A DNA stretch of 52,345 bases, taken from the NCBI GenBank assembly GCA_016200085.1, contig JACQFL010000002.1, positions 1-52,345 of the forward strand, in the 5' to 3' direction. This document shows positions 46,666 to 50,303 of this stretch, piece by piece. Each line of letters starts with the position of its first letter. The stretch's first letter is position 1. The translations under genes were made by a program, and so were the position numbers. The stretch comes from Candidatus Rokuibacteriota bacterium (lineage in GTDB: Bacteria > Methylomirabilota > Methylomirabilia > Rokubacteriales > CSP1-6). The notes beneath the pieces were generated by a model. That model ran no database searches, was not told the DNA's origin, and worked only from the letters and a program-made list of their open reading frames with translations.

Positions 46666-48690
46666 ATGGGTGAGGGAGCGGGCTGCGTTCGTGGTCGGGT
46701 GGCGAGCAGCCTCGTCCTGCTGACCGTCCTCCTGGTCATCGGCACCGCGAGCGCCCAGCCTCGCAACATCGGCGTGCAGCCGGCGGCTGGCAGCGCGACG
46801 GCCGCGGCCGGCTACGGCGAGTCGTGGGCGGTCGTCATCGGGATCAACGCCTACCGCGTGGAGCGCGTGCCGAAGCTGCGTTACGCGGTGAGCGACGCCC
46901 GCGCGGTCGAGAGCGCGCTGCGCGGCCAGGGTTTCCGGCCCGATCGCATCGTCGTCCTCACCGACGCCGACGCCACGAAGGCCCGGATCGAGCAGGTGCT
47001 GGGCGACCGGCTGCGTGTGGAGGCCCGCAAGAACGACCGCGTGCTCGTCTTCTTCGCCGGGCACGGGATGACCATGAAGCTCCGCACCGGCGAGGACGAG
47101 GGCTACCTGCTCCCGGTGGACGGCGACCCGTCGGCGCTCTATTCCACGGCCATCAGCATGTCGGCGCTGCGCCAGATCTCGGACCTGATCCCCGCCAAGC
47201 ACATCCTCTACGTCGTGGACGCCTGCTACTCCGGCTACGCCGTCTACAACCGCGCGGTGGCCGACGACCTCTTCGAGGAGATGACGAAGAAGCCGGCGAT
47301 CCAGATCCTGACGGCCGGGCGCCAGGGTGATCTCGCCCAGGAGCGCGCCGGGCACGGCGTGTTCACCGACGTCCTGCTGCGCGGGCTCGGGGGCGAGGCG
47401 TTCGCCGGCAAGGGCTGGGTCGCGCTCGATCAGCTCGGGGTCTGGGTGCGCGAGCGGGTGTGGGCCGAGTCGAACCGCAAGCAGCTGCCCCAGTACGGCA
47501 ACCTCTCGGGCGACGGCCAGTTCGTGTTCACCCGGGCCGGTGCGAAGCTCGCGGCGCTGCCGCCGGAGCCGGCGCCGCCGAGGCCGGCGCCGGGGATCAC
47601 GACGGAGATCGAGCGGGAGTACGGCACGCTGGCCATCCGGGGCAAGCTCGCGGGGATCGAGGTCTGGCTCGACGAGCAGAAGGTGGGCGAGACGCAGGCC
47701 GGTGGCGCGCTGGTCCTACGCAACGTGGCGGCGGGGCCGCATCGGGTCAAAGGCGTCAAGGCCGGGCAGAAGGACTGGGAGCGCGCGGTCGAGGTGGCGG
47801 CCAACCAGCGCGCCGAGGTGATGATCGACATCGAGCCGCTGGGACCGGCGAAGACGCTCCGGACCGAAGACGGCGCGGAGATGGTGCTGGTCCCTGCGGG
47901 CGAGTTCACGATGGGGAGCACGCAGCAGGAGGTGGACCGCGCTGTCGAGGAGTGCAAGCGCGACGGGCTCGCAGAAGCGACGTGCAAGGAGTGGATGGGC
48001 CGCGAGCTGCCACGACACCGGGTGAGTCTCGATGCGTTCTACATCGACCGCTACGAGGTGACGAACGCGCTTTTCGAGCGCTTCACACGCGCCACGAGCC
48101 ATCAGACGACAGCGGAGCGCGAGGGTGACGGATGGGCCTGGCAGCAGAAGGACGGCAAGTGGCAAGGGGTGAAGGTGAGCGGCGCGGCCTGGCGAGCGCC
48201 GAACGGGCCGGGGACAGCGGCGCCGTCGGATCATCCTGTCGTGCAGGTGTCGTGGCACGACGCCGACGCATATTGCCGGTGGGCCGGCAAGCGGCTCCCC
48301 AGCGAGGCCGAGTGGGAGAAGGCCGCGCGCGGCACGGACGGCCGGCGTTACCCGTGGGGCGAGGATTGGGACTCCGCGAAGGCCAACGGCGCCATGACGG
48401 TGAAGGCCACGCGGCCGGTCGGCTCGTATCCGGGTGGCGTCAGCGCCTACGGTGTCCACGACATGGCTGGCAACGCGGCAGAGTGGGTCGCCGACTGGTT
48501 CGACGCTTCGTATTACCAGCGTAGTTCTGAACGGAATCCCCAGGGTCCCACCTCGGGTGAGCGCCGCGTCCTGCGCGGCGGATCCTGGTACTACAGCCCG
48601 ATCCTCCTGCGGACGGCGAACCGCTACTACAGCACGCCGGGCAACCGGTTCAGCCTCATCGGGTTCCGCTGTGCGAGGGGGGCATCTTAG
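46666..48690 (+). CDS. DGR variable protein: exported caspase-PEGA-FGE (C-type lectin fold)
   Basis: This 674-residue protein starts at ATG 46666, set by GGAGG 5 nt upstream; a GTG at 46651 lacks such a site. A signal peptide (SLVLLTVLLVIGTASA) is followed by a caspase-like C14 domain with His133 (FFAGHGM) and Cys187 (VVDACYSGYA), both intact. A PEGA domain follows (about 312-385). The C-terminal FGE-sulfatase/C-type-lectin domain (about 404-674) has VPAGEFTMGS, WHDADAYCRWAGKRLPSEAE and GNAAEWVADW. The VR encodes residues 635-671, with variable positions 642-644, 647, 654-656, 659 and 662-664. It probably sits outside the cytoplasmic membrane and couples ligand recognition by a changeable lectin-like surface to proteolysis. 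Confidence 0.92.
   Translation: MGEGAGCVRGRVASSLVLLTVLLVIGTASAQPRNIGVQPAAGSATAAAGYGESWAVVIGINAYRVERVPKLRYAVSDARAVESALRGQGFRPDRIVVLTDADATKARIEQVLGDRLRVEARKNDRVLVFFAGHGMTMKLRTGEDEGYLLPVDGDPSALYSTAISMSALRQISDLIPAKHILYVVDACYSGYAVYNRAVADDLFEEMTKKPAIQILTAGRQGDLAQERAGHGVFTDVLLRGLGGEAFAGKGWVALDQLGVWVRERVWAESNRKQLPQYGNLSGDGQFVFTRAGAKLAALPPEPAPPRPAPGITTEIEREYGTLAIRGKLAGIEVWLDEQKVGETQAGGALVLRNVAAGPHRVKGVKAGQKDWERAVEVAANQRAEVMIDIEPLGPAKTLRTEDGAEMVLVPAGEFTMGSTQQEVDRAVEECKRDGLAEATCKEWMGRELPRHRVSLDAFYIDRYEVTNALFERFTRATSHQTTAEREGDGWAWQQKDGKWQGVKVSGAAWRAPNGPGTAAPSDHPVVQVSWHDADAYCRWAGKRLPSEAEWEKAARGTDGRRYPWGEDWDSAKANGAMTVKATRPVGSYPGGVSAYGVHDMAGNAAEWVADWFDASYYQRSSERNPQGPTSGERRVLRGGSWYYSPILLRTANRYYSTPGNRFSLIGFRCARGAS
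48568..48677 (+). repeat. DGR variable repeat (VR)
   Basis: The 110-nt segment at the 3' end of the target gene aligns without gaps to the TR at 50191-50300. It is identical at 96 positions and different at 14, all of them adenines in TR (8 A-to-T, 4 A-to-G, 2 A-to-C by codon: tac, tac, agc, ctc, tac, tac, agc, ggc, ttc, agc, ctc in place of ten aac and one gac). The last 20 nt are invariant and would serve as the initiation-of-mutagenic-homology segment. VR ends 13 nt before the end of the stop codon. Confidence 0.97.
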
Positions 48691-48699
48691 GCCGTTGAG

Positions 48700-49812: not shown

Positions 49813-50303
49813 CCAGCGAGTCGCCGGCGTTCGTAAAGATCTACGACCTGCTCAAATGGCTGCTGCCGGCGACGGCGAAGTTCCCGCGCCAGCAGCGCTT
49901 CGTCCTCGCGCGGCAGATCGAGGAGGCGGCGTTCGGGCTTCACCGGGCCTTGCTCCGCGCGGTCGACGACGGCAGGCCCGCGCTCACGGAGGCCGACCGC
50001 GAGCTGGCGGCCCTGCGCGCGTATCTCCGGCTCGCGTGCGATCTGCGCTTCTTCAGCGTCAACCAGTACGAGCACGCCGCCCGGCTCGTGGACGAGCTGG
50101 GCCGGCTGATCGGCGGCTGGAAGCGCCGCGCCGCCGATCCGACCACGGCACCGGCGGCCTCACGAGGCCGTAGTGTGGGGGTGGGCTACCGTCCTGCGCG
50201 GCGGATCCTGGAACAACAACCCGATCAACCTGCGGACGGCGAACCGCAACAACAACACGCCGGACAACCGGAACAACAACATCGGGTTCCGCTGTGCGAG
50301 TGA
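49809..50303 (+). CDS. avd: DGR accessory variability determinant (Avd)
   Basis: The first ~115 residues are a helical Avd/23S-intervening-sequence-like four-helix bundle: FVKIYDLLKWLLPATAKFPR, QRFVLARQIEEAAFGLHRAL, ALRAYLRLACDLRFFSVNQY and HAARLVDELGRLIGGWKRR. Avd pentamers bind the reverse transcriptase and nucleic acid in known DGRs. Here the frame continues for about 50 more residues, ending in a Gln/Pro/Glu-rich tail encoded by the TR itself, which begins in codon 128. The stop TGA lies directly after TR. Whether the tail is part of the functional protein is uncertain; known Avd proteins are near 120-130 residues. Confidence 0.9.
   Translation: MTSESPAFVKIYDLLKWLLPATAKFPRQQRFVLARQIEEAAFGLHRALLRAVDDGRPALTEADRELAALRAYLRLACDLRFFSVNQYEHAARLVDELGRLIGGWKRRAADPTTAPAASRGRSVGVGYRPARRILEQQPDQPADGEPQQQHAGQPEQQHRVPLCE
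50191..50300 (+). repeat. DGR template repeat (TR)
   Basis: The 110-nt template holds 31 adenines. In the VR frame it contains 12 AAC codons, nine of them in three runs of three (NNN), plus one GAC. AAC is the ideal target because changes at its two adenines give 15 amino acids and never a stop. Fourteen adenines differ in VR and no other base does. TR lies inside the avd reading frame, shifted relative to the VR frame. The 158 nt beyond TR up to the HepT gene hold no gene and may encode the 3' part of the TR RNA. Confidence 0.97.

Follow-up and report, generated by a model that had tools for sequence, protein, structure and literature searches.

Does the 3.6-kb stretch 46666..50303 of contig JACQFL010000002.1, from a Candidatus Rokuibacteriota bacterium (assembly GCA_016200085.1), hold a complete diversity-generating retroelement (DGR), is this DGR active, and does it belong to its host? 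An earlier note on this DNA had answered yes on each point. We examined the whole contig (52,345 nucleotides; hereafter the window), which is part of a 3.57-Mb genome that is 94.6% complete. The core parts that the note had listed within this stretch, namely a target gene with a variable repeat (VR), a reverse transcriptase (RT), Avd and a template repeat (TR), were all found, with open frames, and their order, target (VR)-RT-avd-TR, was indeed unlike that of the Bordetella phage BPP-1. We consider it very probable that they form a complete DGR in which RT with Avd rewrites the end of a caspase-domain gene and so keeps altering the binding surface of a protein that is predicted to be exported. 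This reading builds on open frames, adenine-only VR/TR differences, the affiliation of the RT, a caspase His/Cys pair in the target and covarying base pairs 3' of TR. The parts are:

46666..48690, + strand: DGR target gene for a 674-residue caspase-domain protein with a C-terminal FGE/C-type-lectin domain (Pfam, homologue alignment, predicted model, fold matches)
48567-48677, + strand: VR, which differs from TR at 14 positions, all of them TR adenines
48742..49812, + strand: DGR RT with IGNLTSQ and YVDD motifs (best PDB match 8ub7; tree)
49809..50303, + strand: Avd open frame, with a constrained core from 49809 to ~50126 and a tail that reads through TR (NF033474, PF22296)
50190-50300, + strand: TR, a direct repeat of VR, unlike the TR of G007 (a genome of a related genus) at 5 of 111 positions, none of them in AAC codons
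50301..50463, + strand: predicted spacer RNA element, with a closing stem (50304-50308 with 50359-50364) and an inner hairpin (50325-50348), then an invariant CAG

VR and TR form a 111-bp direct repeat with 87% identity. The 14 mismatches are A to T (8), A to G (4) and A to C (2) when read from TR, and 0 of the 80 non-adenine positions were changed. Given 31 adenines in 111 positions, such adenine-only placement has a hypergeometric P of 1.3e-9. In the target frame, 11 VR codons were changed: AAC to Tyr (4), Ser (3), Leu (2) and Phe (1), and GAC to Gly (1). The lead of Tyr and Ser resembles the conversion of AAC in the reconstituted BPP-1 system, where, according to an excerpt of PMC12875486, this codon mostly becomes Tyr, Ser or Asp. 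None of the A-containing TR codons of the window can yield a stop codon, and ~3e16 protein variants are reachable. The changes between the TRs of the window and G007 fell on codon positions one, two and three as 1/0/4 in the target frame versus 4/1/0 in the Avd frame; these counts are small (five changes in all). TR thus appears to be preserved as code for the target, which is what repeated copying into VR would require. Because of the adenine-only pattern and the open frames we infer, as had the earlier note, that the DGR is apparently active.

The RT carries both motifs that had been read from it. In DGR RTs, [I/L/V]GxxxSQ replaces the QGxxxSP of other RTs. The best PDB match was 8ub7, the BPP-1 RT (3.5e-58), and the first group II RT followed at 1.1e-21; the BPP-1 RT is 36% identical to that of the window and has the motifs IGSLTSQ and YMDD. 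We placed the RT in a tree of 25 rows, as the earlier note had proposed. A branch with 100/100 support split 18 DGR-type RTs (the window and 17 others, including BPP-1) from seven QGxxxSP RTs of family genomes; the DGR-type rows were picked by motif or by match to the window RT, with TR not confirmed for each. The group II-like grouping that would have spoken against a DGR was not found in this tree, which included no retron RT. The rows nearest to the window RT came from Rokubacteria (L028), Chloroflexi (L029) and Saganbacteria (L030). Profile scores were below cut-off both for group II RTs (TIGR04416, 146.5 bits versus 300) and for retron St85 (42.6 bits versus 235), 83 general RT models of PADLOC matched, and the best phage match was 40% identical. 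Judged by motif, match and tree, the window RT is of the DGR type.

The start of Avd overlaps the RT stop. Its frame matched NF033474 with 91.5 bits (NCBIfam DGR-Avd cut-off: 80) and PF22296 (Pfam) above cut-off. Between the window and G007, changes in the Avd frame fell on the three codon positions as 10/6/41 in the core, 5/4/7 in the linker from core to TR and 4/1/0 in TR. These counts indicate that the core is under protein-level constraint, whereas the read-through tail is not visibly so. We rejected an Avd-TR fusion protein, as the linker and TR counts lack the third-position bias of the core; by our own estimate, the length of the frame that stays open through TR is unremarkable at the G+C content of the window.

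The extent of 3.6 kb that the earlier note had given holds for the core parts, but the constrained Avd ends at ~50126 and the element likely continues past 50303, to ~50463, as structured RNA. We aligned the spacers of the nine DGRs with alignable sequence after TR (the window, G007, L029, L030, L034, L036, L037 and two from G141). RNAalifold predicted 22 pairs, including the closing stem and the inner hairpin just before the invariant CAG. In the 12 helix pairs, 87% of cells could pair, and this value fell to 42-57% when the partners were slid by 1 to 3 columns. Double-change cells numbered 37, versus 15.0 +/- 2.8 in shuffles (0 of 500 as high), in a comparison that favours the structure, which was derived from the same alignment, and in which related sequences inflate the covariation counts. 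The spacer helices thus covary across DGRs of several phyla. A covariance model built on them matched the window at 50271-50463 and found a tenth DGR outside the training set (L032, 44.7 bits, E 5.9e-11 over 281 kb), with 2 of 12 pairs non-standard and part of the score coming from the conserved TR end. Rfam gave a single sub-threshold match on the opposite strand, which we took as chance. For DGRs of this RT lineage, the covarying spacer may serve as a marker by which TRs and the ends of the RNA can be located.

The target gene contains the following features:

46651, + strand: GTG, a possible alternative start 15 bases upstream
46666..46755, + strand: signal-peptide-like N-terminus, residues 1-30, ...LLTVLLVIGTASA/Q, read by eye
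46825..47496, + strand: caspase (Peptidase_C14) domain; His133 codon at 47062-47064, Cys187 codon at 47224-47226
47623..47838, + strand: PEGA-like stretch, just below the Pfam cut-off
47875..48678, + strand: FGE-sulfatase/C-type-lectin-type domain without the FGE catalytic cysteine pair (Pfam, alignment to human FGE, fold matches)

Pfam matched the target to Peptidase_C14 (E 8e-17; 62.1 bits versus a cut-off of 21.4), PEGA (E 5e-4; 20.4 bits, cut-off 20.8) and FGE-sulfatase (E 5.2e-65); among PADLOC models it was matched only by 'caspase'. In an alignment of 79 rows (the target and 78 homologues), the caspase dyad was conserved (His133 in 79/79 rows, Cys187 in 78/79). The model of the target had a mean predicted local distance difference test score of 88.3, and a C-terminal FGE/lectin fold is predicted from it. 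Cysteines 336 and 341 of human FGE, which we take to be the catalytic pair, are missing: MCHRSYC of 1y1e faces YYSP and a gap. VR sits at the C-terminus of this C-type-lectin-type domain, and across the 79 rows the 13 A-rich VR codons had a mean entropy of 3.36 bits, compared with 1.23 at other VR positions and 1.52 in the rest of the FGE domain. The target is predicted to be exported, with a helix at residues 13-24 in the model and a crude signal-peptide pattern in 62 of the 79 rows.

Caspase-FGE paralogues of the target lie elsewhere in the genome (G000:C30:29526-31511 and G000:C50:6752-8596), as does an FGE paralogue (G000:C26:71371-72126). We rejected each of them as an additional VR: the C26 paralogue is 70% like TR with many non-adenine differences, and at E up to 1 a search with TR DNA hit nothing within either the C30 or the C50 paralogue. 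The same search found no TR adjacent to either of these two. Matches to TR in G009, G011 and G036 differ from the window TR at 6 to 15 non-adenine positions and were not shown to be VRs.

How would such a system work? By analogy with BPP-1 (PMC12875486, in excerpt), the TR-spacer RNA would recruit RT and Avd, cDNA synthesis would start near the 3' end of TR, with errors opposite adenines, and the mutated cDNA would replace VR in the target gene. The VR face of the target likely lies exposed and binds ligands. Given a true signal peptide at the N-terminus, which is less certain, the target could bind changing ligands outside the cytoplasm. Also with less certainty, ligand binding might direct or trigger the caspase-like protease, whose substrates could for example be molecules of phages, predators or competitors.

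Several observations weigh against this reading. VR turnover, the protease activity, the ligand and the link between binding and cutting are putative, and export was judged by eye and with a crude pattern. The target family is hypervariable at VR positions also in members without a shown DGR. A VR-flanking inverted repeat like that of BPP-1 is indicated only weakly, by a weak hairpin (DNA folding z -1.27, 25 of 200 shuffles equally good); for the hairpin downstream of VR in relatives, z was -1.85 in G007 and 0.29 in L029. The spacer model did not convincingly find the BPP-1 spacer (8.9 bits, other strand only), a crude single-sequence test of the closing stem was significant for none of the nine spacers (p 0.14 to 0.81), and a second, shorter spacer alignment recovered the hairpin only. 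Finally, the counterpart loci of G007 and G030 look broken and the RT frame of G015 has one stop, so that loss of the DGR appears to be common.

On one G007 contig, the target and VR are followed by the 5' part of RT and then by a sequence like the C-terminus of a DDE transposase (PF13701, 1.3e-10). A second contig opens inside RT and continues with the rest of that gene, Avd, TR and spacer (L053 8502-9195 at the end of G007:C21, and L028 1-945 on G007:C133). The two overlap by 166 bases with three differences; they may come from a single broken copy, from two copies or from two strains. The G030 remnant is an in-frame fusion of an FGE domain to RT from about residue 113 (L031 5530-7094), with Avd kept; nothing in the 18 kb examined resembled TR, and no spacer match was found. 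Of 148 genomes searched, 5 had an RT at E up to 1e-60 (our own, three of the family and one distant), and hence 3 of 56 other family genomes; among 95 genomes of the phylum, 5 (our own included) had an Avd above cut-off. By eye, from open reading frame (ORF) lists, the DGR genes of G007 and G030 lie among neighbours unlike those of the window. The amidohydrolase upstream of the cassette was found at E up to 1e-200 in 19 of 57 family genomes, our own included. We compared 7 of the 18 others over up to 1.5 kb per side, and likeness to the window locus stopped at the amidohydrolase gene in these; no empty insertion site could therefore be read. The cassette looks patchily held and relocating.

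This decay raises the possibility of a recently silenced DGR, in which all parts still look open although the element is no longer expressed or no longer homes and VR has become fixed. The disruption of the related-genus counterparts (the transposase-like sequence in the G007 RT, the fused wreck of G030, the stop in the G015 RT) is in line with it. We nevertheless consider it quite improbable, since RT, Avd and target frames are all open in the window and its VR/TR pair is free of non-adenine changes, whereas the VR of G007 differs from its own TR by 2 non-adenine in addition to 14 adenine changes. With the window pair so clean and the relatives decayed, the last copying event into the window VR looks recent relative to the divergence of the genera. 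It may also be asked whether this is a DGR at all, or an ordinary partial duplication of an FGE gene end beside a group II-like RT. A C-terminal consensus is common to FGE family members, the C26 paralogue approaches TR in sequence, and TIGR04416 does match the RT, though at about half its cut-off. A plain duplication, however, would not confine all 14 changes to the adenines of a single copy; the C26 paralogue has many changes at other sites, and the RT motif, the tree and the presence of Avd all argue against it. We give this explanation practically no weight.

The active DGR that we favour might instead be a passenger trait of a mobile unit, perhaps together with a MntA-HepT toxin-antitoxin pair, and not a fixed host function. 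We consider this possible though doubtful. The patchy presence in the family is consistent with it. Moreover, the cassette of the window is immediately followed by a MntA-HepT pair (50462-51269, - strand), and in G007 the target is immediately preceded by a relative of this pair (L053 5850-6622, - strand), with 59% and 61% identity across the aligned portions. On the other hand, the window cassette showed no integrase, transposase or att-like end, and the HepT relative of G015 is on a different contig from its RT. HepT matches occurred in 29 of 57 family genomes, and relatives at 61-73%, equal or closer, were also present in genomes that yielded no close RT: the HepT of G007 (62%) was only the seventh-closest family match (the window's own excluded), behind six from such genomes. 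The pairing may be chance, and its linkage to the cassette is suggestive only. PADLOC labelled the window MntA as PDC-S09. The earlier note had seen no phage genes nearby, and as far as tested this stands: among the 30 other window proteins scanned, a subset of its ORFs, none matched a phage family (Pfam) and six matched no family. Its term 'host-owned' is too strong for a cassette with close RTs in so few family genomes and with differing neighbours in the two that have readable flanks.

How does this DGR compare with known ones? BPP-1 has the same four core parts and adenine-specific VR/TR differences in a different order (mtd-avd-TR-brt, that is, target-avd-TR-RT). Its target Mtd belongs to the FGE subtype of C-type lectins (PMC6328139, in excerpt), and the window target is likewise FGE-type, but Mtd is a phage tail protein and the window target a caspase-domain protein. 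TvpA of Treponema denticola (2y3c), single-domain according to the same excerpt, has no caspase domain, unlike the window target. Closer in architecture are cyanobacterial DGR proteins with an N-terminal orthocaspase-like peptidase and a C-terminal diversified C-type-lectin domain; the excerpt of PMC7517822 describes these targets as mostly predicted cytosolic, whereas the start of the window target is signal-peptide-like, and the phylum differs. Also alike are the chromosomal DGRs of Thiohalocapsa PB-PSB1 and other DGRs of clade 5, which diversify putative antigen sensors and have FGE/C-type-lectin targets tied to protease effectors. In the cited part of PMC10907252, the target of DGR 5 in PB-PSB1 is predicted to be secreted and that of DGR 2 has a caspase-like CHAT domain, and targets in this group use STAND NTPases, MoxR/vWA ternary systems or adaptor domains. 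The window target, in contrast, has protease and sensor in one chain, and the scanned window proteins included no STAND NTPase, MoxR/vWA or adaptor partner. A link between FGS domains and DGRs has been drawn in surveys of conflict systems (PMC7159879 and PMC8195603, both in excerpt).

Caspase-lectin DGR targets and secreted DGR targets are therefore already in print; the window adds a single-chain, exported-looking target and the spacer structure. In the open-licence literature we found no published report of a DGR in Rokubacteria or Methylomirabilota, and the main text of PMC8144416 contains none of the words 'caspase', 'peptidase' and 'Rokubacter'. If active, the window DGR would be a compact and well-preserved one in a lineage for which that literature yielded none. 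Because its target would join sensor and protease in one exported-looking chain, the question of which ligands cellular DGR proteins bind may be approachable with a single protein, and the broken counterparts in related genera may provide a natural series of DGR decay. Taking all these features jointly, one could picture a single-chain extracytoplasmic executioner in a bacterium not known to be multicellular, whose hypermutated lectin head aims a caspase-type protease without NTPase or adaptor, with a spacer structure common to RT relatives of several phyla and unlike BPP-1, and with a cassette that travels with a toxin-antitoxin pair aiding its retention. As a whole, this picture is speculative and we regard it as unlikely.

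Other features were noted in the window and beyond. A few kb upstream of the cassette, a PIN-domain/MazE-type pair (42163-43091, - strand) looks like another toxin-antitoxin module, and a 111-residue fragment (41803-42138, + strand) that matches only the end of the amidohydrolase profile is possibly a deletion remnant. In G007, a MntA-HepT pair unlike the one described above lies beside a caspase-FGE paralogue (L054 4457-5274, + strand).

The same genome as the window contains a second DGR, of a distant RT lineage (7037-11141 of L020, G000:C39:148001-168000), with three tandem targets, Avd on the other strand, and RT. Compared with its TR (9605-9738), the VR of the third target has 20 of 20 differences at adenines, that of the second 22 adenine and 12 other differences, and that of the first 24 and 32. 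This DGR may sit in a mobile element, as FtsK/TraD-like and RadC-like genes (by eye) and DNA methyltransferase genes are nearby.

In other phyla, cassettes with RTs related to that of the window (L029, L033, L036, L037, L044, L045) accompany other FGE-ended proteins, several of which are present as two or three copies that bear repeats. In L029, two long N-termini of such proteins look kinase-like by eye.

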